A stretch of 64,000 nt of DNA from Hydractinia symbiolongicarpus (Eukaryota; Cnidaria; Hydrozoa; Anthoathecata; Hydractiniidae). The stretch is taken from positions 35,507,828-35,571,827 of the forward strand of contig NC_079876.1 of NCBI RefSeq assembly GCF_029227915.1, read 5' to 3'. The notes beneath the pieces are model-generated. The model was not told where the DNA came from, ran no database searches, and saw only the letters and a program-made list of their open reading frames with translations. A program made the translations under genes and the position numbers. This document shows positions 10,719-57,167 of this stretch, one piece after another. Numbering within the stretch: the first letter of the stretch is position 1; every line of letters begins with the position of its first letter.

Positions 10719-10749
<31 letters not shown>

Positions 10750-13331
10750 GCTCTTGAATTTCTTGTTGTTGTTGCTGCATTTGATGTTGTTGTTGTTGCT
10801 GAATATGTTGTTGTTGTTGCTGAATATGTTGTTGTTGTTTTTTGGGTTGTTGTTGTTGTTTTTGTTGTTGTTGTTGTTTTTGAGTTTTTTTCTTTTTCTG
10901 ATTTTTTTGAGGGTTTTCTTTTCCATAATTAAATTTTTCTTTTTCTTTTTCTTTGTTTTTCTTGGTAGTGTTCTAAAAAGGCGATAAAACAAAATATAAA
11001 ACAAAAAATAAATAAATAAATAAAAATCGTTTAACAATTATAATTGTTATTTTACTTAGTAATATTGCTGAGATTTTTCAATTATTGATGTTTTCTTTGT
11101 GTGTTGGTTCTTTCAAAAGCAAAAGGTTGTTATTCAATTTAAATCGAAACTAAGTTGGCAGAATTGCTCGATTTAAGATCTTTTACGTTAATAAGAAAAA
11201 TTGGTCCCTGACTGAGAATACAGAACTAAGCTAAAATTCTTGCTTGCAATCAAGATGTTTTTTCCTTATAAAGAATGTTGAGGAGAAAATTTAGGAGAGT
11301 AGATCAACTTGTTCATCGGGTTTTTAACATTAAGTAATTACAAAGATTGACTCCAATGATTTTTTACAGTTGGTGAAGCTTTTGCAGAGTATTTTGCAGT
11401 TTAAGGACAATTAAATTGAAAAAATGTGGAATCTAGTGACGTCATCTGCTGAGTGGGTAACTAGAGGCTACCAGAAACTAAAAAGGACCAATTTCCTAAA
11501 GCTGGGTTAACCAAACTTTTTAAATAAAAGACAAATTGATAACGTTATGAAATTCCATCATCTACAATTGTTTTGAACCCTACACACGGGAGACACTTTC
11601 AAATATTACTTTTGCGAGTTTTTGCTGACTTTTAACAATTTAACCCTTCCTAACTGTTGATCAAAATCATATGAACAAGCGTTTTAAATTATACATGTTA
11701 ACAGACAAGGAAAAACAAAATCTTTATAATGAATGCTTCTTTCTGCACTGGTGGCGTCAATACAACTATCAAAACCTAATGTTTTTCGTTGTCTCCTGCC
11801 TATCGATCAGTTTTAAATCAAACTACCACCAATAGATAATTCTTAACACCTGCCAATTTAAGTTTTCGTCAAAATTAATTCTTTTCTGCTTTTCTCTAAA
11901 TTAAAAGTTACCAAAGAAGTAGCACAATGTTCTTGTTGTTTGGCAATGGTAAAGTTGCAAATATATATTCGTTATGTCTGTTTGCATAAAAATTTGTAGC
12001 TCCCATAAGAAGAAGTAACAGCTTCGTATTATAAATTTAAAAGAATTCAACTTTGTTGAGTTTGCATGTTTGTCACAAATATATTTTTCTATTTTTTCTT
12101 TCAAAAAGCAACAAATGTCTAAAATTTCTCTTTTAATAAAACATCTTTGCATTATGATATCAGTTGTTTTCATGAATAGATTTTAATTATTACTTTTATT
12201 TATGACTCATAAAATTGTAACCTACATACTCATCCAAAATCAATCCCAAATTATTCTGCTCCATACAATTATGACTGCAAGTAAATTTTGTATCATTAAA
12301 CATAGTTGTTTTGTTTACAGCGACATTTCTCTAAGGTAGTAATGTCTTAGATCACAGAGGCAATGTTATCTTTGAATGAAAGTTAATAAATTACACTCGG
12401 TCAGGATTAAGAACTTTTTATTGTCTCTGAAAATTTAATTCACGTAAGAATATATTTCTATGAAAAGTAATACAAACTTTCATTCGCAATAAAATATGAC
12501 GCTTCTAAAGAGCTTGTGTTGATGTTGCTTTTTCGATGTTGGAGAAAAAATAATTTTTTGAGGAGAATATCAGTTAGAATAATTTTTAGCAGAAATGATG
12601 GATTAAAACTTATCTTTATGTACACCAAATATATTTTTTGAGAAAAAAACTAACATAAATTTAACCGTAGGTTTACGCTTATTTGTTGTTTCTTTGTGAT
12701 TTCTTTTAGTTAAACAAAATATAACAATTTTTGGAGGAAAATGATAGGTTCTAAATATTTTAAGTAATTGAATAGTAACAAGGCATTACATTTACAAAAA
12801 AATAGCTCAAACCAAATAAATTCTGCCAATAGAATATGAATCGTTCACTACGTCAAAGGTTAACAAGGTTATTAAAAAGTTCCTTGATACCTTATTTGTG
12901 TGATTTGTTTTGATTGGTGATTTGTTTTAGTGGGACATTATGATACTTCTGTAAAGAAAAACGTTTTTCCAAAAACATGTCTTAGTTGTCAGGTAAACTC
13001 CTATACTTAACGTAAAGTTAAAGAATTTGGATTACCACATAATTCAGAGTTTTTGTGCTCCAGCTTGTTTTACTTTGTTTTAAAAAATATCGAATTAACC
13101 CAAAACAAAATAAATCTTTGGATATTGTACTATGAAAAGGATAGTACCCTGCTATCAAAGCAGTCTTAGTATACAAACAGGAAGTATTTTGTTTATTGTT
13201 GTTTCCTTAAAATCTTTTAAAAACATAACTTTGTAATTTAAAAACGAAGCGACAGGAAACTCAACACGTTCAGAAGTAACTTATTTTTCAAAAAACGTAA
13301 GAAGAGGCTTTTATATAGTAAAACTTACCAT
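5474..13331 (-). CDS. poly-Gln / coiled-coil / Pro-rich protein, 414 aa, eight exons
   Basis: I do not recognise the family. Coding exons on the minus strand: 13331-13329 (ATG only, directly followed by gtaag), 10972-10601, 10523-10495, 10413-10315, 10096-10019, 7826-7790, 7142-7068 and 6025-5474 (TAG). All junctions have AG/GT and phases agree (0,0,2,2,2,0,0), giving 1245 nt. In order: a Lys/Asn/Glu-rich start; about 85 residues dominated by Gln with His and Met interruptions; a basic RR-rich patch and an Arg/Glu-rich segment; a Pro/Glu linker; a short coiled coil spanning exons 7-8 (heptads around EERVSALEARVEALENN); and a Ser/Cys then Pro-rich tail with PPRPPTPP repeats. There is no signal peptide. 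Low-complexity composition suggests a nuclear or scaffold protein, which is inference only. The first exon is the least certain: the upstream frame is closed and ATG sits exactly at the donor. Confidence 0.7.
8711..8835 (+). mobile_element. short non-autonomous Helitron-like element (~125 bp), decayed 3' end
   Basis: It begins A|TCTCTATAATAATAGCC, matching the 5' ends of the other Helitrons here, followed by GTCTGTCTGTCT. Its middle (gatggtagcttagctg, caatgcggtataaaaa) matches the inverted copy at 42024-42163. The 3' hairpin is degenerate (gagtccgtggatttttgtactc) and the final CTAG is not preserved. It lies in the long intron between exons 5 and 6 of the poly-Gln gene. Confidence 0.7.
9335..9405. 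repeat. TA-rich microsatellite, self-complementary
   Basis: A run of tatatta/tatacata units able to fold on itself. It lies in the long intron between exons 5 and 6 of the poly-Gln gene. Confidence 0.7.
10675..10875 (-). repeat. CAA/CAG trinucleotide tract encoding poly-Gln
   Basis: On the minus strand this is an interrupted CAA/CAG tract read in frame as Gln, with ATG, CAT, GAA and CGA interruptions, inside exon 2 of the poly-Gln gene. CAA dominates. The unit is expandable, so length is likely polymorphic. Confidence 0.85.
10990..13320. other. first intron of the poly-Gln gene, no feature seen
   Basis: About 2.3 kb of AT-rich sequence between the ATG exon and the poly-Gln exon on the minus strand. 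I see no element ends or exon-like frames. The minus-strand frame 11901-12173 looks like random AT-rich sequence. Confidence 0.4.
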
Positions 13332-24206: not shown

Positions 24207-24617
24207 TAAAAAAAACCCAACGGTGCAAAAATATGCTATAAGATACGACAGTGAAAAAAAGAGAATTATTGAAGGAATTCAAATAAACATACAGTTGGAG
24301 AAAAGTAGTGTTGTAAGGATTTAATAATATATCAAAATATATAACTTCCGTAAAACGTGTACTTGTATTCTCTGAACAACACTCAATGAAAGATTTTCAT
24401 AATCATTCCTTTGTCGATTCACGGGATTGGATTTTGTGTTTAAATCAACATTTTTTATTTTTGGCGTCAGAATCTACAAAACTATTACAGATCTTAATTT
24501 TATTAGAATTTTAATTTTAACAACAATAGACTGAACCCTATGCAATCTCATATTTAGTATATAAATATAAAAGCAATGGTGACAAGGTTGCTGGAAACAA
24601 TTTGTTTTTTGTCCATT

Positions 24618-25112
24618 TCACTCTCTTATTGAGCTCGAAAACTTTTTCCATTCCTCTTCTGTAAGTGTAACTCCCTTTTTCAATGGAGTTGCTTCTCCGA
24701 TCGGCTTTACATCTTGAGACTTTCCAATACTTACTCCTTTATATGTACCTTTAGTCTTATCGTCGTGTTCAAACTCACCAACACGAAGTAGCACATTATC
24801 AGGAAGAAGATGCTGAAAAACATTTTCGTTACTTACTTTCTTTATTTCATCTGCCACAACATCTAGAAGAGTTTTAACACAATCCAACTGTTTTGAATTA
24901 AGTTCTATTGCTACTTTGTTATTTTCACTCAATTCATTACTTTTATTAAAATGAATTATTTCCACGCGATCTTTTTTTACGATTATTGTGGTAGCTCGGG
25001 ATAGTTTATATGTCTTGTCTGTGTGCTTTTGCGGTGGCCAGAAGTCATCGCCAACTTGCAATCTGCCTTCAACCCAATACACATCGCTTCTTCCACTTGG
25101 ACTTATTGCCAT
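24618..25112 (-). CDS. single-exon 164-aa protein, PC4/p15-like (left copy)
   Basis: Starts at ATG 25112 (MAISPSGRSDVYW). A TATATAAA box lies at 25169-25162, about 50 bp upstream. The first half holds two Lys/Glu-rich strand-like blocks. The C terminus GEATPLKKGVTLTEEEWKKF resembles the PC4 single-stranded-DNA-binding domain end (G-E-x-x-P-x-K-K-G-I/V-S/T-L-x-x-E-x-W). PC4 is a transcription coactivator; the match here is by eye over about 20-40 residues, so the name is tentative. No introns, unlike the other genes in the window. The partner at 27167-27661 is about 93 % identical and transcribed away from it. Confidence 0.65.
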   Translation of the reverse strand: MAISPSGRSDVYWVEGRLQVGDDFWPPQKHTDKTYKLSRATTIIVKKDRVEIIHFNKSNELSENNKVAIELNSKQLDCVKTLLDVVADEIKKVSNENVFQHLLPDNVLLRVGEFEHDDKTKGTYKGVSIGKSQDVKPIGEATPLKKGVTLTEEEWKKFSSSIRE

Positions 25113-25161
25113 TATTTCTTCTTCCAACGACTGTTATGGCTGATCTGATTATAGATATCTT

Positions 25162-25169
25162 TTTATATA
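25162..25169 (-). promoter_or_regulatory. TATA box, left PC4-like gene
   Basis: TATATAAA on the minus strand, about 50 bp before the ATG. The mirror copy in the right arm is intact too. Confidence 0.6.
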
Positions 25170-27109
25170 TAAAAAATCTAACAAACCACACAGTATTGTG
25201 AATACTTTTATTCTGACGCCACTCCGTGTTAATCTAATGGGCACAGTTTGTCTTCATGGCTTTATAATCCTCAATAAATGCTGTGTTTGCATAAGTAATA
25301 AATTCTAACACTCATTAAATGCTGTCGTCAACAAAATTGTAAATCATTTTCCGCTCATAATCACATGTTTTTATAAGCAAATAAACATTCTTAATCAGCT
25401 TATGTAAAAAAAAACACAATCAGGCGGAGAGTATGCTTACGTCATGTTTTTTAAAAAATAATTTTTAAGCTTAAAATATGGCTATTCAGATAAAATAAAA
25501 TGGTCCCATTATACGTTTATAATTAGAAATTAAAAAAAGGTTGAGAAGCATTACGCAAGTTGCAAGCAAAATTGAAACCAGCCAATAGTTGTCCCTTTGA
25601 TATAATACGGCGAGGTGCTAACATCTTCCTTCAGGTGATATATGCAACAAAACTGATATCATAGACGTAGAAACAATTCTGGGGACGAGGTTGTGAATAA
25701 AATCACCGCGGAACAACAACAATTCGTTGCGCTAAAGTAGTGCTTTTTTGGCGATATATTTAATGATATATATTTGCAGTTTAAAAGGTTAGCTCTAAAT
25801 ATTGTACCTCAAAGGCACTGGATTTTAATGTATTTAGAAACTTTACTACAAAACTTTTACTTTTCTTTTTAGATTGCATACAATGCGAGCGAGAGATGTT
25901 ATCTTTCAATATGTGAGATAAAAAGAAGAAAGCGAAACCTCACACCGCGTTGTCATTGTTTTTTTGTCAAAAATGTGAAGCTGTTTTATAAATCTTGATA
26001 AAGTTAATAAATTGTTTTCGTTTGTGTAGATTGTTTGTTTTTATTTATTGTATCCCGTAAGTTTTTGAAATTCATTGTAACAGATTCCGTGGCTTCAAGG
26101 AATTGATTTTCATAACTAGTGACGGTATATTTACATGAAAAGAACACCACAAACTGCTTCGTTCGTCTTCTCATCTCCGAAATCGTTAACTCGAAAGTCT
26201 CTATAACATTATCTTTGACCCGAGTATCAACTTCCGGTTGAAAGGGCGTACCTTACGACGCGCATCCCCTTAATTTGTGGCATTTTCGCACACTACGGGT
26301 TGTACAACTCAATGTATTGCATATCTTTCAGAATAAGGGTTTTAGCGTTATAAAGTATAACTTTGCATGAATTACTGGCGCTAAAAGCTTCATAAATTTT
26401 GAATTTACGTTACCAAGACTGACAATATGGAAATAAATTTCTCAGTAATCGTTTTTGTTTAGTTTCGCGCGATCTAATTTTCTCGCACCTTCTGAAAAGA
26501 AATATTCCGCGCATGTTGAATTTTCGCCAAAAAATCACTACTTTAGCGCAACGAATTGTTGTTGTTCCGCGGTAATTTTATTCACAACCTCGTCCCCAGA
26601 ATTGTTTCTACGTCTGTGATATCAGTTTTGTTGCATATATCACCTGCAGGAAGATGTTAGCACCTCGCCGTATTATATCAAAGGGACAACTATTGGCTGA
26701 TTTCAATTTTGCTTGCAACTTGCGTAATGCTTCTCAACCTTTTTTTAATTTCTAGTTATAAACGTATAATGGGACCATTTTATTTTATCTGAATAGCCAT
26801 ATTATAAGCTTAAAAATTATTTTTTAAAAAAGATGAGGTAAGCATACTCTCCGCCTGATTGTGTTTTTTTTACATAAAGCTGATTAAGAATGTTTATTTG
26901 TTTATAAAAAACATGTGATTATGAGCGGAAAATGATTTACAATTTTGTTGACGACAGCATTTAATGAGTGTTACAATTTATTACTTATGCAAACACAGCA
27001 TTTATTGAGGATTATAAAGCCATGAAGACAAACTGTGCCCATTGTATTAACACGGAGTGACGTCAGAATAAAACTATTTACAATACTGTGTGGTTTGTTA
27101 GATTTTTTA

Positions 27110-27117
27110 TATATAAA
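27110..27117 (+). promoter_or_regulatory. TATA box, right PC4-like gene
   Basis: TATATAAA, 50 bp upstream of the ATG at 27167, conserved with the left arm. Confidence 0.6.
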
Positions 27118-27166
27118 AAGATATCTGTAATCAGATCAGCCATAACAGTCGTTGAAAGAAGAAATA

Positions 27167-27661
27167 ATGGCAATAAGTCCAAGTGGAAGAAGCGATGTGT
27201 ATTGGGTTGATGGCAGATTGCAAGTTGGCGATGACTTCTGGCCACCGCAAAAGCACACAGACAAGACATATAAACTATCCCGAGCTACCACAATAATCGT
27301 AAAAAAAGATCGCGTGGAAATAATTCATTTTAATAAAAGTAATGAATTGAGTGTAAGCAACAAAGTAACAATCGAACTTAATTCAAAACAGTTGGATTGT
27401 GTTAAAACTGTTCTAGATGTTGTGGCAGATGAAATAAAGAAAGTAAGTAACGAAAATGTTTTTCAGCATCTTCTTCCTGATAATGTTCTACTTCGTGTTG
27501 GTGAGTTTGAACACGACGATAAGACTAAAGGTACCTACAAAGGAGTAAGTATTGGAAAGTCTCAAGATGTAAAGCAGAACGGAGAAGCAACTCCATTGAG
27601 AAATGGAGTTACACTTACAGAAGAGGAATGGAAACAGTTTTCGAGCTCAATAAGAGATTGA
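27167..27661 (+). CDS. single-exon 164-aa protein, PC4/p15-like (right copy)
   Basis: Same length and start as the left copy, with 12 residue differences or fewer over the protein (for example PI to QN and KK to RN near the C terminus). The PC4-like end reads GEATPLRNGVTLTEEEWKQF. An AATAAA at 27771-27776 lies about 110 bp past the stop. Comparing the two copies by eye I count about 13 replacement and 4 silent changes, so both frames are open but the divergence gives no sign of purifying selection. Either the copies are young or one or both are relaxed. Confidence 0.65.
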   Translation: MAISPSGRSDVYWVDGRLQVGDDFWPPQKHTDKTYKLSRATTIIVKKDRVEIIHFNKSNELSVSNKVTIELNSKQLDCVKTVLDVVADEIKKVSNENVFQHLLPDNVLLRVGEFEHDDKTKGTYKGVSIGKSQDVKQNGEATPLRNGVTLTEEEWKQFSSSIRD

Positions 27662-28677
27662 AATGGACAAAAAACAAATTGTTTCCAGCAACCTTGTCAC
27701 CATTGCTTTTATACTTATATACTAAATATGCATAGGGTTCAGTCTATTGTTGTTAAAATTAAAATTCTAAAATAAAATTAAGATTTGTAATCGTTTTGTA
27801 GATTGTGACCTCAAAAATGAAAACTGTTGATTTAAACACAAAATCTGATCCTGTGAATCGACCAAGGAATGATTATGAAAATCTTTCATTGAGTGTTGTT
27901 CAGAGAATACAAGTACACGTTTTACGGAAGTTATATATTTTGATATATTATTAAATCCTTACATCACTACTTTTCTCCAACTGTATATTTATTTGAATTC
28001 CTTCAATAATTCTCTTTTTCACTGTCGTATCTTATAGCATATTTTTGCACCGTTGTGTTTTTTTATTTATTTATATTTTATTTAGGGATAACCTCGACCC
28101 CAAGGCTTGTCTCTATAATTATACGAGGAGTGTGTCTGTAACAGGCAAAGTGGATTATATTTGTTACAATCTTCTTTAAAGTCACAGACAATTGTTATTT
28201 TGTTCAAAAGTTTTAATTCATTTTAAATATTAAATTTTAAATGTTATTTAGTGGATTCTCCCAAGGGATTTTCGTTTAAACCTTTTCAGCCTTCTTAACG
28301 GAGTTGCTAACAAACATTTTGCGATAAGAAGCATAATAAATTTTAAAAAGACAATTAGTGGATAATTTCACGGGTTTAAATGATTAAATAACAAAAAATA
28401 ACATCTTAACAACATCTGAGCTTTATTTGTACACATTTTTTGAGTCATTCCTACACTTTTGACGGAAATTATCGACTTTTATTTTTAAGATTATATTCAA
28501 CCTGGGCGTTATATATGTTTTTTTAATTCATGGTCAATTTACTGCTGGACGGAGTATATTTGAGAGTAAAGATATGTCTGAATGCTGAGAAGATTAAATT
28601 GGAAAACAACGACGTATATTATATAGGAGAAAATTGATAGTGGCAGTCGTTTACATTTAAAAAAAGATTTTAATACA

Positions 28678-40007: not shown

Positions 40008-41740
40008 ATGATAGATCAACAACCCACAGTTAACTCGCCTGTTGCAAAGAAATTTGCACGATTCGCCTCTAGACTTTGTAAGTATCATTCGTGAAATAGG
40101 AAAGTTCTAGATTATCAAGACATTGTGCTAACGTACCTATCCGCTAATTTGAAAATATGTTCAATAAACAAATATTCAAAAATGCAGCAGTAAACAAAGA
40201 GTTTTATCAAGAAAGGAAAGAAGTATTTGAAATAACGATTTTTTGAACACTTTTTCATTCGAACTGGCGGGTGTGAACTAAATTTTATTGTTGCAAATAA
40301 AAGTACATCATCGTGGTTATTACTAAAAAAATTATGATATTGCTCTACTCCTGTTTTGAAATTATCACTGTTCCACTTTTTAACCACAAGGTATTGTTTT
40401 CATTATCACTGGTATCCTAACATTATGTTTTGGTATCAGTGTTTATCTCACACTACGCACATCAAGATTTCCATTCTACATACCAGGCGCATCAATATTC
40501 ATTTCCTTATGGATGATATTTACAGCTAGTTTGGGTATACATGTTTTTTCTGGTACGTCAAGTAACCGACCATTGATTCGACATTTTAACGCTTCTGCAA
40601 TGGCAGCTGACATCCTTGCTTTTGTGGGTGTTGTAGCATCAATAGCTGGATTCATGTAAGTGAACCAAATTCTAGCCAAGATCTACAAAAATAGAATTAT
40701 TAATTCAGTTTGCTTGATCTTTAGAATGTACCTCGATTGTAGACGTGTAACTAGACGTTTTAGTCCTGATAATCATTACACCTACACGTTGTGGTCTGCA
40801 AATTTTTGTACAAAAAGTCGAGATTATGGGGTGGCTGTGTATGCTATGCTTTTCCTGCTCCACTTCTTGCAGTGTATAATCTCAATGGCAACCACAGTAT
40901 ACGGATTCAAAATTTCCAGAATTGAAAATATAGGTTGGTGAAAAGAAAGAAATGTTTTGTTGCTATAAGATACAGGTTGTATTACCGCCAAATAATATTT
41001 CTGTGATTTGCGCCCTTGTAATTACGCCTTAGTATACAACAACATAAGCTACGCGTACAGATATTTTTCATACTCTTTCCTGTCTTCTTTAAAGTGCACA
41101 TTTTAGGTTTTTGCGTGCATTAAGTATTCGAAAAAGTGTGTTAGTTTTGGCGCCCCATATGAATATGTGAGGACGTAACGGGAGCTTTTGAACGTCTTTA
41201 TGTACAAAGTAAATGAAATTTGATAAATCAAAATAAGGAATTTTGGCTGATAGCTTATACCAGGCACTAACCCGAATCTCCGTATCAATAATACCGGTTG
41301 TTTCTTTTCATATCGAACTCTAAAAACTAATTTAATTACTTTTAAACAGGCGTGTAAGGCAGCATAAAAAACGATGGCCAGATTTTATACAACGGGCGGA
41401 AATCTGAGGACCGAAACATATATGACAGGAGATTTCTCGTGAATTTTTTCACAGGATAACAACGACTAGCAGAGTTAAAATATAATACTCATTTCTTAAT
41501 TCAGGTCAACAAAGGAATGGCGAGATTATTCAAGCTAAACCTCATCCAACATTACTACAAACCTACGCGTCGCAAGACCAATTCCAAATACCAAAATTGC
41601 AACAAAATGAAATTCTTGTTACGGCAAACACTGGTCAGCCATTTATACTGATACCTGTGACATCAACTTCTCAGCAGTTGCCAATACATCTGCCAATTGA
41701 TTCACTAGCAGGCTCTCCACCACCGTACTCCGCATATTGA
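40008..41740 (+). CDS. four-transmembrane CD20/MS4A-like membrane protein, 259 aa
   Basis: Exons 40008-40077 (exon begins 39999), 40391-40655, 40725-40933 and 41505-41740 (TGA). Phases 1, 2 and 1 match at every junction and the total is 780 nt. A short polar N terminus (MIDQQPTVNSPVAKKFARFA) is followed by TM1 (IVFIITGILTLCFGISVYL), TM2 (ASIFISLWMIFTASLGIHVF), TM3 (AMAADILAFVGVVASIAGF), a ~45-residue loop with two cysteines, TM4 (GVAVYAMLFLLHFLQCIISM), and an ~85-residue cytoplasmic Gln/Pro-rich tail ending PPPYSAY. Layout and length fit the CD20/MS4A superfamily. Other tetraspan families are possible, since no single diagnostic motif is present. The PPPY motif could recruit WW-domain (Nedd4-type) ligases. 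Confidence 0.75.
41430..41469 (+). mobile_element. degenerate Helitron-like 3' end in intron
   Basis: ttctcgtgaattttttcaca, then ggataacaacga and CTAG, in the last intron of the four-TM gene. The hairpin is weak and the 5' end is not found. Confidence 0.4.
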
Positions 41741-43542: not shown

Positions 43543-46500
43543 ATGGAACACAAGGTACGTTATAAACATTTATTAAAAAGAGTGTTCAAATTAGGAAATT
43601 GCAACAGTGGCCCTTTTCTTGTTGAGAGCATTTAAGTGAATATTTGATTTTGTGACAAGTAGCACAATATTTGCAAAATAATCTCTCTTTTATTTCCGAG
43701 GTCCGATTTATGGTTTATGTTTGTGCTATCAACAAAAATTTACATTTAACCCTATTCGGTCCGGGGTTTTTCGAACATACTATGACCGGGGGGGCGGATT
43801 CCGCCCCCCCCCCCCCTCAATAACTTTTCATAGGGTTGTTCAAATTGAATCAAACTTGGCACACTTATAGTACGTCATAAAAGGAACAAAATGGCGCCAA
43901 AAAATTTTTGCTTGCGTCAGCACATTTTCTGTGACGTCATCAAAAGCTTGAAAATTGTTAAAAATGCCACTATCTGCTTAAAATATAATTACTTTTGTTC
44001 TAGAGCGAATTTTTACATTCTGTTTTAAGTTTCTGAAAGCTAAATAAAAGTTATTTAACATATCTTCCGGTTTTTACATGGATCGGATGAAAAATTGCCA
44101 AAAATTGCCCGAAAATCCGTTTTTTTCCCGATTTTCGGGTAAAATCCGACAAAATCGGGAAATCGGATTAGTCACGTGTTCAAATTATTCCAAATGATTC
44201 TTCTTGATGAAACAAAGTTGTGTTGCAAGTTTCAAGTTCTAAGGATAATCCTAACAGGAGTTATTATATTTTCCCCATTATAAGGATTTCATAGAGATTT
44301 TTAGGGGTAGTTTCTAGTAATGGCCACTATCAAAGCCTCTGAAAGGTATGAGACCTAAAAAATTAGCATGCAGGTGTCTAATAGATAAATGTTGAAACTC
44401 AGTAAGTATCATAGCCATATAACAAAGCAATCAGGAGTTATTAAAAAAAACCGTCAGGGGGGGGGGGGCGGAATCCGCCCCCTCCCGGACCGAATAGGGT
44501 TAAGGGGAATCAAATGAAAAACATAACTCCGAAATAACATGAAGTTTATTCTCTTTTAATTGTTTTCTTTGCATACTTCGGATTGTTCAACTCTGCCGTT
44601 GTATACTTGTAACGTAGATCGTCTAGTGGTACAGTACCTTTCAAAAAAAAGTTAGTTTAAGACCAGTGTTCGTCACAGGGGTTTGTTCCAAATTGGGTTA
44701 TATTGCTTCAAAACATACTCTGGGTTGCTAGGGTATAGTAAACTCGACGATAAAGTGAGCCAGTAAGCTAATTCTGGAAGAAAAAGCCCAAATATAAAAA
44801 ATAGAACAGACTCAAGACTTTACAGCGAAACATTTTGCTTTGTCTTTAGTGTGTTCTTGCACGTTATGACATTTTCGTGAGAGTCATTACTTTTCTCAAA
44901 TATTTTATACAGTTAATATGAAAAAAAATTTCTACATACCTCTTTTATGCCTTCGTGCCATTTAAAACACAAGAGGCGTGAAAGTTCTTTTTGAATAGTA
45001 GTACACGTTCTAATTATTTGCGGACTTTTTAGTCTTTTTAAAGTTTTGACGTTGTTAGAGCACTCGGTTCTTTTTCCTTTCGTGCTAAATAAAATGGAAT
45101 TTCTCTGCTGTAACTCGAATCAAATGTGGCTCAGGATGAACATGTTTATGAGCAGTTGATTACCTGTCTACTTGTGAGGTACCCTCTTGTTTTACAGTTC
45201 ATGGTGTGCATTTTATCATATTTGTCATCACAAGGACATTATTTCATTAATCATTTAGGTGCTTTGACATATCCTCATACGCGTTAGAGATTTGGTGGAA
45301 CCACGAAAATCTCCCCAAACAGGATCCCCTAGGTTAATTACGGTAGCAAAAATGTCCGCGGTAAATTTAAGGAGTTTGTTTGTTTCCTTTTTAAATGGAA
45401 ATTATTCTGCTTTTGTGGTTCTACAATTTATTCAAACTGACAAGGTGTTGTAAAATCGGTTGCGTTGCTAATTTTATGTTGTATAAGGACCTTACATTTT
45501 GCTTCGGGAATGCTTAGCCTCCTGAGAGTATTGAAATGTCGATTACGACTAACTAAAAGCCACACGATAACAAAACATTAGATGCGGAAAAGTTTCTTGT
45601 GCGTTTGTTTGTACAAGATAGAAACTTTCGTAAAATTTCATTAACTCTTTTATGCCCCCTGTTTTGTTTCATGTTTTGTTTATAGCAAATTTTTCCAATT
45701 CCTCTTCCGCTAGTTCTTGTGAACAGTTACAGTGGGGTTCAACCCTCAATGCATCAGTTAGACCTCAATTGGAATTAACGTATGTTTTCTAATCGTAGCT
45801 TCTAATCAATTTTGTTTTGGCTTGTTTGCTGTTCCATAATGCAGTACAGTCATGTACAGAATTTTTCCGGAAAGCAAAAGATGATAGTGTGGTTGTTGGA
45901 CGTACGATGGAACTTGCGGAAGATTTGAAATCAAAAGTCATATCAAAAGCAGGAGGATCTCCTGAGAAAAGTTTTTTGCCATCCTTTTGCCGTGAATCTT
46001 CTCCCCTGGAATGGATATACAAATATGATGTACTTTGTGTAAATGCCTTCGGGAAGCCTATATGTGTGGATGGTATTAATAGTGAAGGTTGGCATTACTT
46101 TAGTTCCCTCAGACGAAAAAATGCAACTACAACCATAAACATGTACAAACCAAGATTATATTTGTTTTTTTCTATATTACAGTCGCGCATTTTGAACTTG
46201 TTAGTTTTTACTTTACACCGGACTGTTTCGTCAAACTCATACTTTTGAAACGTGTTAATTGTTGCCGCCGTAATCACAAATAATTTTTTCTAAATTTGGC
46301 GACCGTCATCGGACCTTATGTGGATTATTTCGTTGTGCGGTTGCTCCAAATAACTGCACTAGCAAACTTTGCTACCTGGCCTGGGTGAGTGAAAAAGTAG
46401 CTCCTTTGCAGCTTATCGGCTTCAGGGTAGTAACTGTTTCAACTTTTTGTCCGTGTTTGAGAAATGATGAAAGAGAAAACGGTCTGCTTCATTAATTTGG

Positions 46501-47744
46501 CCACGATTGTAGTTGCAAATGTAAAGCCTTTATATTTGCGTAAAAATCGACCAATTAAAACTGTTATCAGAGAAGGGTATAAATAGAATGTGATTTCTTC
46601 ACTAGGTCTATCAGTTGGTGCTTTGTATTTGCCGCAGTACACGGTGTATGACAACACAACTCAACAAGATTGTTCCAACATGGTGTCAAATGTTCAAGTA
46701 CTAAATTTTATACTGGGTAAGAAAGATCAATAAATTCTACACTAATGCAGCAGCATTATGATTAACTTGTACAACCTATTATACCCTGGCTTCACCAGGG
46801 TTAAGCTTTGAAACACAGGGAAAAAATTGTGGCATTAGGACCCGTAAATAATTTAGAAACATTAAAATTTAACATTAATTATGCATTCTGTAAGATAATC
46901 CTTAAGCCTGCATCAGTTATATCGCTTACTTTGCAGCAAATTATAATTCGACAGCGCAACTTCGCCATGCCGTTAATGGAAACAACTTTCCAAAAGTCTT
47001 TGGCATGGCAGTTTTTGGTCAGAATTTTGAGTTCCATTACACCGTAACAGATGCAAGTGGAGATGCGTTAGTGTTGGAATACACTAAAGATGGAAGAGAA
47101 GCTCATGATAATACGATTGGTGTTACAACAAACTCACCTCCGTATGATTTTCATATGATGAACATTAAAAACTACGTTACGTTATCAAAGTTTTCTTCAA
47201 AAGATCTAACATTTAGTGATGTTGTGTTTACTCCAGTGGGTATTGGCAGTGGATTACTTGGTGTACCAGGAGATTTTACACCTCCTTCAAGATTTATTCG
47301 CATGGCTTCTCTCCTGCATTTCTCAAACCAACCAAACACAACAGATGAAGCGCTTAAGCTGACTTATCACTTGTTGAACACTGTTGATATTCCAAAGGGT
47401 AAGAGACTTTGTTATATACATTTCATTTAAGTAAAGCCCTAGCGCTTTACTAATACTTCCTACTTCCAGATAGAATAATGATTCTGTATCCATATAGCCT
47501 GTCTGTAGTCGGATAGGCAATAAAATGAAAAAGATTTTTGACTTTCTTAAAGTTGTTTTCTTTCTTGTTATTAAAAGGTGTAGCACAAGTTGAAGTAGGA
47601 CCGAAAGAAGGTCATTACGATTATACGCAGTGGGTTGTGATGAAAGATTTAAAGAATCGTGTCCTTTACATCCGTTATTACGACGACTTCATGTTTCAAA
47701 AAAATAACATGAAGGAAACGAAGAAAGAAAAAGTCGTGTCTTAG
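43543..47744 (+). CDS. secreted choloylglycine hydrolase / penicillin V acylase family enzyme, copy A (346 aa)
   Basis: Ntn hydrolase cleaving linear amide C-N bonds. Exons 43543-43554 (MEHK), 45799-46087, 46606-46716, 46937-47398 and 47578-47744 (TAG); 1041 nt, phases 0,1,1,1. Residues 5-22 (LLINFVLACLLFHNAVQS) form a signal peptide whose cleavage would free Cys23, the family's N-terminal nucleophile. Also present: GRTME (Arg39, Glu42), LYLPQYT with Tyr108 at the position that is Tyr in penicillin V acylases and Asn in bile salt hydrolases, TTNSPPYDFH (Asn203) and SRFIR (Arg256). Spacing follows the bacterial enzymes. The natural substrate is unknown (bile-salt-like, N-acyl amino acid or N-acyl homoserine lactone are options). 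The C terminus is short and Lys-rich. Exon 1 is inferred from a phase-0 ATG exon; a piggyBac-type MITE lies in intron 1. The tandem partner is at 51951-56684. Confidence 0.85.
43750..44499. mobile_element. piggyBac-type MITE, 750 bp, TTAA target duplication
   Basis: TTAA|CCCTATTCGGTCCGGG at the left and CCGGACCGAATAGGG|TTAA at the right give inverted ends and the TTAA duplication typical of piggyBac. Just inside each end sits a C/G palindrome (gggggcggattccgccccc; ggcggaatccgcccc). No transposase is present. It sits in intron 1 of copy A. Confidence 0.9.
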
Positions 47745-47769
47745 AGATACAACTAACAATTGTACTCTA

Positions 47770-49120
47770 TTGATGTTAAGTCTTGGAGTAAAATATTTTA
47801 TCACTTACACTACATTTGCGGCATATAGTTTTCACGCTAAAAATCTCTTGAAAACCAAGTCTTTTATTCAATCGCCCTTCTTAAAATTGCCTGTGTTCTT
47901 CAATTTAGAAAATGTAGCTAACATAATATTATTTTTCAATTGTACATTTTTTAAAAACCAGTAAAATCCGACATGAGGCTAACTGTTTTTATTTTTTGAT
48001 CCTTTTGCAGTCTGATAAGTTCATACTTTGTTTTAAATAGAAGATTAAAACTTTAAAACATAGCCTCGTTTGGTTCTTACGTTATGTAAGTAAAAAAAAA
48101 TCGTCCACAAGCTAAAAAAAAATTTATATCCTTGACTAAAATTTTTCTTTTTTCTGTAAGAAACCTAAGCTTTTAGCTTTATTATTCAATAGACTTTAAA
48201 AATTTTCTCAAAAAGAAAATATCTAATTTAGAAGAGTTTTTTGGACAGTTTGGGTACAGCTATACGAACGACATTTGCTACCCTTTTCCTACCTTTTCTT
48301 AAGCGTTTCAAATAAAATATGATTTTTTTTAAAAGGTGATTAATAATGTTACCTATTATATTACTTATACATTAAGTTTCTTGTTAAAAATTTTTTTCAC
48401 TTTCCTAAAATTTTTGAACCTTTGGTCTCTTTTGACTGGTTTCTTATAAAAAAAAAGTCTGAAAAACACAGTTTTAACATGACTTTCCTTGTTTAGCAGT
48501 TATTTCACTATTAATCTTCATAAAATAGGCCTAAAAATTGATCGAACCTAATCGATCAACAGAGAACTTTTTTAGACTGTCCGGTTCCAGTTACAAAAAA
48601 TTCGAAACGCATGCTAATTATTACATATCTTGCACGTATAAGTGGCACTAAAACTGTATGTTGAGATTATCCATATAAAATTATAGCTAAATCGCTAAAA
48701 TTACAATGCACATTGGACGTATTAAGCACCATAAACAGCTAGCTATCTACCTCGACGGATGCATTAGTTAGATCACTTTTTTTCAGGGAAAAAATTTTCA
48801 CGCTGTGATGCAATACTGAAGAGGGCCCAGATTAGTTTATCTGTAGTACTAATCTGCTGTGCTGTGCTGAGTTTCCTGATTAAAACAAAATGCTTCACTA
48901 TATTAAATCTCACTGTTAAAAACACAGAAACTTCGTCCAATTTCACTATATTTATTCTTCTTCTATTTTACTAAAATTTAAAAGTAAAAATAATATCCAT
49001 TTTAAGTGCTAAAACCAGTCATTTACATCAGGTATATCTATTTATACAATAGAAACTAAAATTTTGAATATATTTTTCTCGACAACACGAAAATTCACCG
49101 CTTGTCGCGCTACATTAATA
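47770..49120. other. intergenic stretch, nothing seen
   Basis: AT-rich spacer between copy A and the next Helitron. No exon, element end or RNA gene recognised. Confidence 0.4.
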
Positions 49121-49127
49121 AGGCTAA

Positions 49128-50886
49128 CTAGCCGGGAGACCCGGCGTCGAAACGCCGGGTTAAGCCACAAGTCAAGGTATGACTCAGCGTTGAACACTCT
49201 TTGAAGCGCTTAATAAGTACCGTAAACTGTGCCACACGATCAAGTTGAGCGCTTTAGTACAGTATTTCGTAAATCAAGTGAGACACATGCACCATTATAG
49301 TGTTGCGACTGTAACATGTTTTTCCAAAAATAACCTTTCTGCAACGATAGCTGAAATAAAAAGTTTACAAGCCGTTGTTACTCCATTATAGCAAAAACAA
49401 TCGGTCAATATTATTTTATTTTGCGGAATAAGTTTTTGTGAAAGAAATTAATCGTGACACCGGGCTGAGTGTTTAGTACAGTGAAACGGTGTTGTACAGC
49501 CGTATAGCGATAATACCCTATTGAAAAAAACTGTATTACAGCTTTGGTTTGCAAAACACAGGATACACTCTGTTAAAACACCAGGTTAAGCCACAAGTAA
49601 CTGTGTTACCCGGCGTTAAATGCCCGAGGAGTGATTAATAAGAACCGTCAACTGTGCCACACATTCAGGCAAAGCGCTTTAGTACAGCTATATAGTATTG
49701 TAGAAAGTCAAGGAAGTGCACACAACTTTATGTTGTTTCCGGCGTAACATATTGAAAAATAACTTTCGACAACTTAAGCTAAAATAAAAACACAGATTAC
49801 AATTCATTGTAATCCCGTCATAGCAAAAGCAGCTGGCCAACCTTCTTTATTTATCAGAGAATATTCCTGGCGAAAGTTTAAAAAAAAGTTAAGCTGAGCA
49901 CTTAGTATAGGTAAACAATGTGAAACATCCATTCAGGTGTAGTACTCTTTTCTGTAAAAAGCGTTATCGCAACTTCAGTTAAACAGAACCACAGGAAACA
50001 GCCCAGTCGTTAACACTGGACTATTCGCTTAGTACAGGTAAACCATGTGGCGCATTAGTAAAGGCGTAACACCATTTTTCAAAAACCTTTATTGCAACTT
50101 TGGTTAAAAAAAATCAGGAAACCGCCTGTCGTTATCATGTTCAGTTAATAAAATACTCAGCAATTTTGTTTAGGAGCATGAGTTTTTAAAACAGTAATAT
50201 AATTAGACGCTGCCAACTGCATTTAGCATGAAAATTGTTAAGAATTGTGTTGCAGCCTAACTGCATTTGGCTACTTTCACTTTTTAGCCAGAGGTAGCTA
50301 AAAAAGGAGCTAGCTAGACACAACTTCAACATAAAAATAAATTATATTGGCTGGGATAAATAGCTGTTGTACCAAACTGAATAGTCAAGACTAAGGCTCT
50401 AGCTAGCTAGCCTTTAAAATCTTCGTTTCTATCCAAAAGTCCTAAAACTGGTGCGTTTAAGATCTGTACGTGACTAAAAAACGTGACAATATATATATCT
50501 TAACATCTAAAAACATACATAAAGCAAATATTAAAAAAATATGAAACTTTTAAAAGATAAAAAAGTCAAATAGGCCTACAAACTTTCTACACACTGACCA
50601 CACATTGCACATGACCAATTTCAAACTCATAATGGCCTTTGTTCATTCAGCCGCGAAAATCTTGGATTGTTTTTCTAAGAATCAAAATGGCCTTCGTTCA
50701 TTCAGCCGCGAAAATATATTGAATTGTTTTTTTAAGCGAAAATCTTGGATTCTTCCTGGTTGCGAAAATCGTAGATTGTTTTTTTAAAAAATCAGGCGTC
50801 GTGATTAGTATAGTGAAAACAAAGTCGGCAAAAATGTATCGCATTTGGTATTGGTGCGTATTTTAAAAATTTCGTTTTATTATAGA
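49128..50886 (-). mobile_element. non-autonomous Helitron, ~1.76 kb
   Basis: On the minus strand it starts TCTATAATAAAACG (50886, flanked by T on the plus strand) and ends in the perfect hairpin cccggcgt-ttcg-acgccggg, tctcccgg, CTAG (49131-49128, preceded by A). The body aligns with 22567-24206, including the gctagctagc patch, the 'ccgcgaaa(a/g)tcttg' block and repeated 'tacagtaaac' units. It separates the two CBAH genes. Confidence 0.85.
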
Positions 50887-50889
50887 TGT

Positions 50890-51940
50890 TTTCATGTAAT
50901 CATTTTGTTCAGTATATGCAGCAGTTCTAACTAACTGTCATCAAAAATACACACAACAACTACAAAGAAGAAAAACTAAACCGAAGCAGTCTCCAAATGG
51001 TTTTTTTAGAAAGTCTATGTTGATTTACTGAAAATAATATAGTAAACTAATTTGATACAACCAGCTACAATTCGAGTATATATTAGTTTTCCCCCGTCTC
51101 TGCGTAATTCCATATCGTGTGAGCAAAGGGGAGTGATACACATACAATTTTGCAAGCGCATTCGGTGCCAAAAAGTTAAATCGGCCAGAAATTCAAAAAA
51201 AGAAGAAAAACCCTAAGAAAAATGAAAAAAGACATGGTTAAAACGAAAACGAAAGTAAAATAGAATTATGCAGTAGTTCTGAAAACTTCACAGTATCTCA
51301 AGGAAGTGAAAACTACTTAAAAACTTCTTTTCACTGACTTTCTAGCGGTACCACAACAGTTTAGAAATAATCTTCCGATATTACTACCACGCTTTAAATG
51401 GTGAAACGATTGACCGTGGGACGCGAGCGAAACGATTGTAAACTTTGACGTAGTAAATGTAATAAAAGAGAGCTTTATACTGCGTGAACATTTACATTTG
51501 TTTTCATTCAATGATACTTGTAAACTTGTGAACATTATACATATCAAATTTAAATATTTCATATACATAATCAGTTTTAAGATATTGTGTAAAGTTTCCT
51601 TGTTTTATTAGGACAAGTTTTGCCATAAATGTGGGTCATGGAGACCTTGGAGTATGTGCTTATAAAGTCATTAAAAATTACATTCAATTTAGAAAAAACT
51701 TTGCTTGTCAGTTGTCATCCATGTTTGTCTACACATAGAGAAATTAATGGAAAGGCTTAGGTTTAATCTAAAAGTAACATGAAGCGGCCCGACTGTGGTG
51801 AAAAAGCCATTATAAAGTAAATATAGTTGCTAAGGTTTTCTAAAGTGTTTGTTGATTGTAATAAGCATTCTTTTTTTCACGTGAATAAATATTGATTGCT
51901 TTAGCTCAGTCTGTACAGTTTATTGACGAGTCACATACTT
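50890..51940. other. upstream region of copy B
   Basis: No gene seen. The leader just before the ATG at 51951 shares 'acagtttatt' with the leader of copy A (43515-43525), which may be a conserved promoter or leader element. Confidence 0.35.
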
Positions 51941-51950
51941 TTAAGTAAAA

Positions 51951-54900
51951 ATGGTAAGTTCTAAAATTAATTCGTTAAACTACTTAAATTATATACGTGT
52001 TTTTTGACACTTTATACTTTGTTGATGTTTTGTCGCCAACGCCATTTTAGTAAATCGTAAAAATATCTGTTACGTGATCGCAAACAAATATGAGTACGTT
52101 TAACTCCTCATATTAAAAAACCCGAAAACTTAATATTTTGATTATTGTGTTTTAAAAGATCCGGCAACTCCACTATAAAAAACCCAAAACTTAGAAACAA
52201 ACTCTTCCTGTGTCTACTTGTGGTAGTTTTGGCAAGAATTTGGATATTTAATAAAAAAGTCCAAGTGTTTTCACTATTCTTATGCGTCGTTTTGTAACAC
52301 ATACCTCAGCGACAAATCCAACCTATAACTTTTTTAAGTTTAAGGAGTACCATATTCCTTCCGAAAAACAAACTCGTTCATTGTACCCACGGCAACCGTC
52401 AATAGTTTTGAAATATGTCCATATAAGTTTAGAGAAACTCTCTTGTATGGAACGCTTTACCAGCTCCCTTAAAATACAAGGAGTCGTTTAAAGATTTTAA
52501 ACTTTCTCCTCGCATAATACGTATATCAAATGTGCAAAAGACATTGTTTTGATTATCATCTCTATTGACAACTAAGAATGTAACTGTTGTTGCAAAAAGC
52601 TTCTTTGGTAAAAACATGTTGGCAAAAAGCTTCGTAAAACTTTCTAATAAATAAATACGTTATCAAAATAATAATAAAGAAATAAAGAAACATAAAGAAA
52701 TCTTAATAAAAAATTATTGGAATAACAGTACGTCCTTGTCTTAATAGATACATGCATTTTTAATTGGTCAAATTTCACCTATCAATGTTCACAAACGGGC
52801 TTAGGATCTAAGAATCTGAGGTTATTTGGTTAGATTCGAAACTTTAACCTGTACTATAACTTGCTAACGTTAGCATAGCCTATTTTTTATTTACTGAACG
52901 TGGAGGTAGGGTTAATTTCTTTAAAATGCCGACGTCGCAGAAACTGCAACTTGTTCTTTTTTAACGTTCCTCACTCCGCCTACAGATTTGTCTTAGTGGA
53001 ACCTTCGCAGCCTACCAGCTACGAAGCACTTGTCAGCTGATGTATTTATCTTTTTCGAGGTTTGTCAAAAAACTGTCATTAAGCAAACACTATGAACAGA
53101 ATTATGCTGATTATAGTGTCACAAATAACTAGTTCAAACCTAAAATAAAAATATCAAGTTTACTTTATTATAACTCAAAGACATGATAAGATGTTGCTTT
53201 TACTAAGAAAGTGTTGTAATGCAGAAATACGAGATAAATATAATCAATTTGTTTCTCTCGAACCGTTTTGTAATTCTTTTTTTAATATTAGAGATCCCTC
53301 TAGAGAGTTAGCGTTTCCAAACAATTTTTCATACGTCAGAATTTGTCTATACAGCATGGTAAACTGGGAAACAATTCCGCAGCAAAAATTTCAGAGTTGA
53401 GCTGCCTAAAAGTTTTATGTTTTTATGTGCAACAAATTTTTATTGACTAATTTATTTTTGTAACATACAAACAGTTTTAGTTCAGAATAATTCACGATAA
53501 TCGCATATGCTAACAAAGGCCTTTTGCACTTTTGTAAAATTATATGAACATTGATCTCAAGAACAAGCAGTTGATTTCACAATTTATACATTCTCCTGCT
53601 TTTTATTCGTTGTAGGTTTTCTCCATAAACAATAAACCATTAGTGAACATTTTTTTATTGAATTTAATTTATTTTCTTAAATTTTGTCGATTTCGTTCTG
53701 AATGAAATTACCCTACCAGCTTGACGTTGATGTCATTACATCTGAGGTATACATATCTTGATTTGTGACAGTCCTATAATAATTTTACAGGAGCGCCGTC
53801 ATTAAATGTATGTAATATATAGTAGCTAAATGCCCATTACTACAAAAAGAGAATCGGATGTATTAGATCAAGTTGGTATTCTTTTTCTTATAGCTTGCAC
53901 TAAAGTCACTTTGGACCGCTTTATCGCTGTTTTATGTAGTTGAATCATGTACAGAATTTTTTATAAAAACCAAAGATAACAACGTGCTTGTCGGACGTAC
54001 TATGGAATTCGCGACCGATTTAAAATCTGAAGTTGTACTTAAGGCAATAGGCACACAAGAGAAAAGTTCTTTGCCTCCTTCCTGTGGTCAAGCCTCTCCT
54101 TTGAAATGGAGTTACAAATATAATGTACTTTGCCTGAATGCACTAAAGCAACCTGTATGCACAGATGGTGTTAACAGTGCAGGTAAATGAATTTATTTTT
54201 GTTTCTTTGGCGCGCCTTTATCATGTGTCCTACTCTTTTTAAGGTGTATCGTCTTAAGAATCATCGCAAATCGATAGAATTTACCCTCCCACCCACCCTT
54301 AGATTAGAATGATATATGTAGGACATATATTGAGGAAAGAAATATATACGGTATATTTTGTGTTAGATATTGTATAACACTTGCTGTACCTTTCTAGACT
54401 GACTCTACTATAAGTGATAAAGAAATAAAGATAATAATAAATAAAGTTATTTTTGTTTGAGGTACGAATTAAAAAATAAGTTTTAATAAACCTATCTATG
54501 TTCTGGTGTAGAAGTTATAAAAGATTTGCACCTTTTCACAGTTTTGCGGAAGTACAATGAGATAGTTTTGTACGAATAATGATTATTATTATATACCCGT
54601 AAGCAAAAACAGCCATTGAATAAATAATCGTATTCCACCCGTATTATTCAATGCTTGTGACGTAACAATAGTTTTGACAAAACATTCGTAAACGCATGTT
54701 TTGATTTTATCCTTTCCGCCTCATTAATTTTTATCGTAATTAACTGTGATTGGTTGTTTCTTAGTGGTCCGTTTTCTGATTAACAAAATAAGTAATATTA
54801 ATTATAACAATCTCTTTTGGGTATATAATAAAACATATATACAATAGGTAAACATAGGTTATTGGATTTATTAACCCTCGGTGATATTATATTCAACTCC

Positions 54901-56684
54901 GCTGCGCGTCGTTGAATATAAATCACCTACGGTTAATAAATCTCAATAACCTATGTTTAACTATTGTATATCTACTTAGTATCCATGTAATATATAGGAT
55001 ACCATATGAAATCTTCTTTCCAATAGGTTTATCAGTTGGTGTACTGTATCTGCCACAATACACAGTGTATGATAATGTTACACAACACGCTTGCTCTGAC
55101 ATCTTGTCTAATATTCAAACTGCGAATTTTATCTTGGGTAAGTCCATTATCAATAGTACTTTACCAACATTATCGTATTTTTTTGGCTAAAAGCCGCTCT
55201 TGAATAGAAACCACATGAAGACATGGAAAAATACAGAATGTTTATTTGTAAAGCTCTATTTTTTATTCTTTTAAAAAATATTCTGTTGAACTTCTTTTTT
55301 CTCCTTTTCGGAAATTGTAATGTTTGTCTCATTGTTTAATGCCGACCTTTATCTTGTTAATAAAGCCACACTCGGTTGCTTCGGCTATTCCGTAAATACG
55401 AATGTTGACAACGTCGCATGACGTATTCACGTATTATAAATTTTTTTATCAATTTGATATCAATTTTCTTTCAAGGATAGCAATATTGGCTTTGTCGCAT
55501 ATTTACTCGCGGTTTCAATTTAAGAAAACAAGTTATGGCATCATTTTTTATTAATTAATCTTTTTCAAATTTGCAGCAACATACAATTCCACCCAACAGC
55601 TTCGAAATGACATCAATGGTAACATTTTTCCAAAGGTCTTTGATATGGAGTTTCTTGGTGCGTATTATCCACTTCACTACACTGTAACAGATTCTAGTGG
55701 AGATGCGTTAGTGTTGGAATACACTAAGGATGGAAGAAAAGCTCATGATAATACGATTGGCGTTACAACAAACTCACCTCCGTATGATTTTCACATAATG
55801 AATATCAAAAACTACGTAACGTTATCGAAGTTTTCTTCAAAGAATCTAAGATTTGGTGATGTTGTGTTTACTCCAGCGGGTATTGGCAGTGGATTACTTG
55901 GTGTACCAGGAGATTTTACACCTCCTTCAAGATTTATTCGCATGGCTTCTCTCCTGCATTTCTCAAACCAACCAAACACAACAGATGAAGCGCTTAAGCT
56001 GACTTATCACTTGTTGAACACTGTTGATATTCCAAAGGGTAAGAGTATTTGTTTTATGTACATTTAAGATTAGTTTTAGTAACCATAAAAAAGTTGAGCA
56101 AGAGTTTGTCAAAGAATTTTTTACACACACAGAAAAAAATAAACTTCCGATTTATTCCGTGAAAATGAAAAATTCCCAACGTTCCCGCGGTAAATTTAAA
56201 ACTGCTCATGCTCGTGGTGGAAGTCGGAGTGGAATTTCACCTTTATTGACATTAATGGAAACCCACCTTTAAGACTCTCCTTTATCTTCTCCTTTTCATA
56301 ACAATACTGTTTGTACTTCGGAGAAATAATGTCTTCGTTAATAGGTTAAAATACACAGATATTAGATCGACCGCACTGATGAAATTTTACAAAATTAGAC
56401 TAACCCTCCGTCTTCATTGGCGTAGTCTATTTCTCTTAATGTTACTTACAGGTGCTGCGCAGGTTGAAGTAGAACCGGAAGAAGGTCATTATGATTACAC
56501 ACAGTGGGTTGTGATGAAAGATTTAAAGAACCAAGTTATTTACCTCCGTTTTTATGACGACTTTACGTTTAAAACATTTGATTTAAAAACAATGAAGCCA
56601 TTGACATCTGGGGTTGTTTCGTGCTTCCAATCTTCGTTAACTCGGCTTTTTATCGTTTTTTTTCTTGTGATTGCTTTGTTCTGA
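51951..56684 (+). CDS. choloylglycine hydrolase / penicillin V acylase family enzyme, copy B (365 aa), hydrophobic C-terminal tail
   Basis: Exons 51951-51953 (ATG then gtaagt), 53894-54182, 55027-55137, 55577-56038 and 56452-56684 (TGA); 1098 nt. Exons 2-4 have exactly the lengths (289, 111, 462) and phases of copy A. The signal peptide LALKSLWTALSLFYVVES precedes Cys20. Arg36 and Glu39 (GRTME), Tyr105 (LYLPQYT), Asn200 (TNSPPYDFH) and Arg253 (SRFIR) match copy A. Unlike A, the protein continues past the DLKTMKPLTSG region into SSLTRLFIVFFLVIALF, a hydrophobic end that fits a GPI-anchor signal or a membrane anchor. The single-codon first exon is inferred. Secretory location and amide hydrolase activity follow from the motifs; the substrate is not known. 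Confidence 0.85.
52000..53880. other. intron 1 of copy B
   Basis: 1.9 kb between the ATG exon and the signal-peptide exon. No element ends or exons recognised; open frames at 52108-52617 and 53191-53400 lack splice partners. Confidence 0.35.
54838..54970. repeat. hairpin-forming inverted repeat, ~58-bp arms (MITE-like)
   Basis: tatacaatag(g)taaacatagg through ggtgat(at)tatattcaac is mirrored by gttgaatataaatcacc through cctatgtttaactattgtata around a GC-rich centre, tccgctgcgcgtc. Arms are near-perfect. It lies in intron 2 of copy B. Confidence 0.85.
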
Positions 56685-57028
56685 AATTTCAGTAAATATG
56701 ATTGTGATACGTTGTTTCTGCTCGTGTGTTAAACTTTTGGTTGTTGTTAGTCTTATTATTGCATTTGCTGTGATTGTTGTAGTGTGCAAACATTTATTGT
56801 AGAACTGTTTTTTTTCAGTTTAGCTTGCACTTTTTTTAAATTTTAAAAAAAAATTTTTTACCAATAGATAAAGTACTAAAATACAGACTTTCCATGCTTG
56901 TATGTTTACGCGCACGGCGCTTTTCATGCACGAAACAGAATTTACGTTTTTTACGTACTTACGTCCCTACCTTTACAGTTACAGCTTTCAACAAATAAAC
57001 AAATGAAAAAGGAACTAGTTATTACTTG

Positions 57029-57167
57029 CCCAACTGGTAATTTGTCCAACTGGAAACTTGTCCAATTGGTAACTTATCCAACTGGTGATTTGTCCAACTG
57101 GAAACTTGTCCAACTGGAAACTTGTCCAACTGTTAACTTGTCCAACTGGTAACCTATCCAACTGGTA
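57029..57167. repeat. minisatellite, 16-bp unit, about 9 copies
   Basis: Repeated (a/g)a(c/t)tt(g/a)tccaactgg(t/a) units with a few substitutions. A frame through it gives repeating NLSNWKLVQL-type peptides, which reflect the repeat and not a gene. Confidence 0.9.

Follow-up and report, generated by a model that had tools for sequence, protein, structure and literature searches.

Why should an animal genome carry two neighboring genes for enzymes of the choloylglycine hydrolase family, where did they come from, and what might their products act on? We addressed this question for a tandem pair located at positions 43543 to 56684 of a 64,000-nucleotide stretch of the hydrozoan Hydractinia symbiolongicarpus (assembly GCF_029227915.1, contig NC_079876.1, positions 35,507,828 to 35,571,827, forward strand; this whole stretch is referred to as the window here). 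The pair belongs to a cnidarian choloylglycine-hydrolase clade that likely traces back to one ancient gene from bacteria, and we consider it somewhat probable that its products act as N-terminal-cysteine amidases on bacterial N-acyl signals (quorum quenching). The parts of this answer that are directly supported are the gene structure, the family, the catalytic set, the clade, a cysteine pair confined to this clade, and KDEL-type C termini that occur in most clade members and are absent in Hydractinia. The exons on which the analysis is based are the following.

43543..43554, plus strand: gene 1 coding exon 1 (Met-Glu-His-Lys), 12 bases ATG GAA CAC AAG with donor gtacgt; N terminus identical to that of database protein P0001
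45799..46087, plus strand: gene 1 exon 2, with the leader core, catalytic Cys (residue 23), Arg39, Glu42 and Cys68
46606..46716, plus strand: gene 1 exon 3, with Tyr108 (position-82 site) and Cys123
46937..47398, plus strand: gene 1 exon 4, with His171, Asn203 (TNSPPYDFH) and Arg256 (PSRFIR)
47578..47744, plus strand: gene 1 exon 5 and stop, a short C terminus without endoplasmic reticulum (ER) motif or hydrophobic tail
51951..51953, plus strand: tentative candidate for the end of the gene 2 first exon (ATG before gtaag), the sole ATGGTAAG within 47745-53890
53894..54182, plus strand: gene 2 second exon, with the leader, catalytic Cys, Arg and Glu
55027..55137, plus strand: gene 2 third exon, with Tyr at the 82 site and the second Cys of the clade-specific pair
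55577..56038, plus strand: gene 2 counterpart of gene 1 exon 4, with the final 126 compared bases identical to gene 1
56452..56684, plus strand: gene 2 last exon, with a hydrophobic tail resembling a glycosylphosphatidylinositol (GPI) anchor signal (by eye and hydropathy)

The sequence-only reading of the window had described a tandem pair of spliced genes for CBAH/penicillin V acylase-type enzymes, and this description was borne out. All internal exon joins of gene 1 follow the order AG, exon, GT, and the 12-base first exon of gene 1 is spliced in phase onto the exon at 45799-46087. The gene 1 product has 346 residues, ends in KEKVVS, and is 100% identical over the full 346 residues to P0001, which carries the database label “penicillin acylase-like [Hydractinia symbiolongicarpus].” The gene 2 product differs at 4 of 364 positions from P0002, a database protein of the same species, and the window and the P0002 record may come from separate haplotypes or assemblies. 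In P0002, a Met sits immediately ahead of the residues encoded from 53894 onward, so that an upstream gene 2 exon ending in ATG is required. Scanning positions 47745-53890, we found one ATG/GTAAG site (51951) and two weaker ATG/GT[AG] sites (51398 and 53356), while a blastn search with the gene 1 5′ region retrieved no first exon for gene 2 (matches listed at ≤24.7 bits).

Both products match Pfam CBAH as whole proteins (E values of 4.7e-52 and 8.5e-54; 178 and 183.8 bits against a gathering score of 20.4) and no other Pfam family, and they share the Ntn-hydrolase fold of the choloylglycine hydrolase family. In characterized bile salt hydrolases (BSHs), the catalytic residues are Cys2, Arg18, Asp21, Asn175 and Arg228, to which site 82 is added (PMC8066178). 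The equivalents in P0001 are Cys23, Arg39, Glu42, Asn203 and Arg256, with Tyr108 at site 82, and both products contain the entire set. We counted conservation at these sites in a clade taken from a FastTree tree (87 rows at first and 93 after enlargement, compared with 216 and 260 rows outside it, respectively). The Cys and Arg18 are each kept in 84/87 clade rows and in 210/216 and 211/216 of the other rows, the remainder being gaps; Asn175 is kept in 86/87 (one gap) and 216/216, and Arg228 is invariant in both sets (87/87 and 216/216). The full catalytic layout proposed earlier is thus present, except that the Glu of its GR-x-M-E motif, although still acidic, departs from the Asp21 of the characterized BSHs. 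Glu is found at this site in 80/87 clade rows and 214/216 nonclade rows; judging from this alignment, a strict Asp21 marks another branch and Glu is standard in the present one.

The placement of the pair on the side of the penicillin V acylases (PVAs) survives only as a residue-level hint. Tyr at site 82, which P0001 and P0002 share, is the aromatic residue in place of Asn81/82 that is expected of a PVA, but the site is aromatic in 206/216 nonclade rows, whereas among the 87 clade rows we counted Leu in 68, Tyr in 9, Met in 8, Lys in 1 and a gap in 1. The 18 clade rows that bear a species name comprise the two Hydractinia proteins with Tyr, Clytia P0122 with Lys, two rows with Met and 13 coral rows with Leu. 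Bacterial PVAs (Bacillus/Lysinibacillus type, PDB 2oqc and 3pva) are 26-28% identical to the Hydractinia pair, which differs from them in its Glu for Asp21, its leader peptide, the clade-specific Cys pair and scores of only 147.1 and 169.3 bits with the NCBIfam PVA equivalog NF058572 (cut-off, 600 bits). Compared with BSHs, the pair has Tyr, not Asn, at site 82, and it stays below the 350-bit cut-off of the BSH equivalog NF038245 (158.4 and 157.4 bits).

In both Hydractinia products, the catalytic Cys lies behind a hydrophobic leader whose last residue (−1) is Ser, gene 1 having 22 leader-like residues ahead of Cys23. This arrangement had been singled out in the sequence-only reading; it is confirmed for both proteins but is not special to them, as 242/260 nonclade rows have ≥10 residues ahead of the Cys, with Ala at −1 in 225 of those. 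Since the leader stands directly ahead of the Cys in the bacterial relatives as well, this activation route looks inherited. Two bacterial relatives, P0095 and P0117, have lipobox-like leader ends (L-S-A-C and L-F-A-C) at the catalytic Cys, and lipidation of this Cys would block the nucleophile. The build is unlike that of NAAA, as had been anticipated: the Hydractinia Cys is residue 23, whereas the NAAA precursor aligns from about residue 131 (6dxy). NAAA and acid ceramidase chains gave no match to a 101-row profile at E values up to 10, and membership in that group was set aside on the build (no internal autocleaved Cys) and this profile search; acid ceramidase also falls outside the 50 VIA entries listed, which carries no weight by itself. 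The “penicillin acylase” of Mnemiopsis was likewise discarded as a relative, its Pfam name in an excerpt of PMC6005172 being Penicillin amidase, another family.

To place the pair, we used protein searches from which the best 120 of 651, 1,579 and 1,347 matches were listed. Hydractinia, Clytia and stony-coral proteins formed one clade apart from bacteria, with support of 100/99 in an 81-row tree and 100/100 in a 76-row tree. Two constrained trees that break this clade were rejected by the approximately unbiased (AU) test (P values of 0.00404 and 0.00221, for groups picked after the tree had been seen). Named rows among the matches listed are either cnidarian or bacterial, with other eukaryotes possible lower down, and the nonclade rows identified by species or lineage are bacterial. 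P0084, tried as a cnidarian candidate, grouped with bacteria and was left out of the clade counts. P0108 is presumably from Clytia, an assumption based on its transcript-style name and on its closeness (78% across 216 columns) to P0122, a row that is named as Clytia. The cnidarian clade likely stems from a single ancient bacterial gene, in line with the horizontal origin suggested earlier.

Two features distinguish this clade from its relatives. A Cys pair (positions 68 and 123 in gene 1 numbering, within 8 alignment columns) occurs in 89/93 clade rows and in 0/260 others; four clade rows lack it, two of which (P0091 and P0122) are fragments that do not cover the N-terminal part, while P0066 and P0082 are not fragments. 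From this co-occurrence, we infer a Cys68-Cys123 disulfide. The second feature is a KDEL-type C terminus, present in 68/93 clade rows, 14 of which end in the PROSITE ER-retrieval pattern or close to it, 39 in a further [KRH]xEL and 15 in [KRH]xEF, a form to which the retrieval variant HDEF belongs. The remaining 25 rows have other ends, including four that terminate in TELR or DELR (an ER-type end plus one residue) and were scored as lacking the motif; apparently cut or odd gene models without the tail (e.g., P0017, P0053, P0058, P0026 and P0104) were kept in the counts. No row outside the clade has a [KRH]xE[LF] tail (0/260), shuffled tails gave a mean of 0.1/93, and, after clustering at 80% identity, ≥1 member of 25/42 clade clusters has the tail. 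It is found in 13 of the 18 named rows, as RDEL in Clytia, RDEL, RDEF, HDEF, KDEL and KEEL in Acropora, RDEL in Stylophora, HTEL in Pocillopora and RTEL in Oculina. The rows without it are both Hydractinia proteins, both Desmophyllum proteins (P0026 and P0104) and Acropora digitifera P0058. For human CES2, PMC11845761 names HTEL as the sequence that mediates ER retrieval.

P0003, the nearest relative of the Hydractinia pair, has neither an ER motif nor a hydrophobic tail. If the tag is ancestral, the Hydractinia lineage seems to have lost it. In gene 2, the last exon ends in a hydrophobic run that looks like a GPI signal, its tail hydropathy of 3.59 being the top value of all 353 rows (runner-up, 2.01). 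The Cys pair and the tags together suggest how an enzyme from bacteria was adapted to the secretory pathway of an animal.

Gene 2 exons starting at 53894, 55027 and 55577 equal their gene 1 counterparts in length, the splice phases of the shared exons are the same, and ungapped exon identities are 67.5% (289 bases), 72.1% (111), 89.0% (462) and 72.5% (167). With nonsynonymous and synonymous divergences (dN and dS) of 0.133 and 0.598 (NG86, 807 bases compared), both genes look selected rather than decayed. Within the 462-base exon (46937-47398 versus 55577-56038), the final three 42-base segments (126 bases) are identical, whereas the other exons are ∼67-73% alike, and dS in the exons preceding it is about 1.44. 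The pair reflects an old duplication, with a later gene-conversion tract likely in this exon.

How the products might work can be outlined from these features. Signal peptidase would take off the leader and thereby expose the catalytic Cys, which would attack an N-acyl substrate at its amide carbonyl to give an acyl-thioester, from which water would release the acid. The Cys pair would close as a disulfide inside the secretory pathway, and the coral and Clytia enzymes would remain in the ER. The gene 1 product would be secreted and the gene 2 product held on the cell surface via a GPI anchor. The earlier label “secreted” suits Hydractinia, but perhaps not most clade members, which end in ER-retrieval motifs. 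An acyl-homoserine-lactone (AHL) substrate is carried over from a coral relative: Acropora millepora AmNtNH1, an Ntn enzyme, reportedly inactivates AHLs and is induced on immune challenge. Its closest relatives are said to be bacterial, via one or more transfers, a cnidarian setting and lateral origin that the Hydractinia pair appears to share. An A. millepora row, P0033, lies inside our clade and may or may not be AmNtNH1. Compared with the coral enzymes, the Hydractinia pair is without the KDEL-type tail, has Tyr rather than Leu/Met at site 82 and, in gene 2, adds the GPI-like tail. Judged by descent, the two proteins are most plausibly a secreted and a surface version of this kind of enzyme.

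Several observations weigh against this quorum-quenching interpretation. A species name is attached to only 18/93 clade rows, all of them cnidarian (75 are unnamed), and the donor is weakly fixed: the nearest bacterial rows in the 81-row tree, a deltaproteobacterial metagenome-assembled genome (L002) and P0111, are joined to the clade with support of only 88/49. With Tyr in Hydractinia and Leu/Met in the named corals at pocket residue 82, the substrate reported for the coral enzyme may not hold for Hydractinia. The ER-type tails of the coral and Clytia rows fit a purely external role poorly and leave room for an intracellular one, directed at inward-diffusing signals or at N-acyl lipids of the animal itself. 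Such a tail is lacking in 25/93 clade rows. An unlikely but serious alternative keeps the family and the bacterial origin but takes endogenous N-acyl amides (such as N-acyl amino acids, N-acyl taurines or related lipids) as the substrates, to be cut within the secretory pathway, and treats quorum quenching as a side activity. In its favor, the tails would confine most relatives to the ER lumen, where they would not meet external bacteria; the predominance of Leu at site 82 in the clade and the variation of substrates among choloylglycine hydrolase family members (PMC8066178) also favor it. Hydractinia, however, lacks the ER motif, and the AHL activity reported for the coral relative (Mason et al. 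2024) points the other way. A link to taurine and settlement was considered and dropped, as “acylase,” “choloylglycine,” “bile,” “hydrolase” and “N-acyl” are absent from the main text of PMC12225738. The own-amide alternative also faces the difficulty that we know of no endogenous substrate. As a possible, tentatively held scenario, a single early-cnidarian capture gave an enzyme that became ER resident in corals and Clytia (disulfide plus KDEL-type tag), serving intracellular quorum quenching or lipid-amide turnover, and Hydractinia later re-exported it as a secreted and GPI-anchored pair.

Alternatives to a single bacterial source carry far less weight. An old eukaryotic gene, retained in cnidarians and lost elsewhere without lateral transfer, is very improbable: vertical descent inside cnidarians would date the clade to before Hydrozoa and stony corals diverged, but named rows among the matches listed are restricted to cnidarians and bacteria. 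We regard independent transfers into hydrozoans and corals as more improbable still. The stem of the Hydractinia trio is long (0.70 and 0.76 changes per column in the two trees), and Mason et al. (2024) reportedly left one or more events open; the clade support, the AU tests and the shared Cys pair, missing from the 260 other rows, speak against separate events. Bacterial contamination or an assembly artifact, which would explain a bacterial family, deserves practically no credence and is in practice excluded by the introns with GT-AG sites; in addition, the database proteins of the same species lie on a 39.96-Mb contig, and the G+C contents of the gene regions (36.1% and 33.6%) fall inside the 29-37% range of the window.

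Elsewhere in the window, a long inverted repeat (24209-25754 and 26524-28064) consists of five arm pairs that are 95-97% complementary, the inner arms being separated by 769 bases. Both arms contain a 171-codon open frame (24621-25133, minus strand; 27146-27658, plus strand) with weak likeness to a PC4 coactivator domain, below the Pfam cut-off. Downstream of gene 2, positions 57024-57167 hold a 16-base unit (ACTTGTCCAACTGGTA) repeated nine times in tandem. A GTT-type trinucleotide repeat of about 208 bases lies at 10675-10882, and an open frame at 40384-40656 has a weak, sub-cut-off CD20-like match.

Cnidarians are said to disarm bacterial signals using enzymes taken from bacteria. The earlier reading of the pair, largely right in family and origin, is already in print for the coral relatives (Mason et al. 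2024) and is therefore not new; the main text of the Hydractinia genome paper (PMC11067881) does not contain the words “horizontal,” “bacterial” or “acylase.” According to a 2026 larval proteome study of Pocillopora acuta (PMC12960093), a penicillin acylase is among the planula-enriched proteins, and a quorum role is suggested there. The part deserving a second look is the location signals together with the Cys pair. If most enzymes of the clade bear ER-retrieval tags, an external, microbiome-facing role calls for a location test, and Hydractinia, in which CRISPR knock-in exists (PMC6122657), is a natural tag-less variant.
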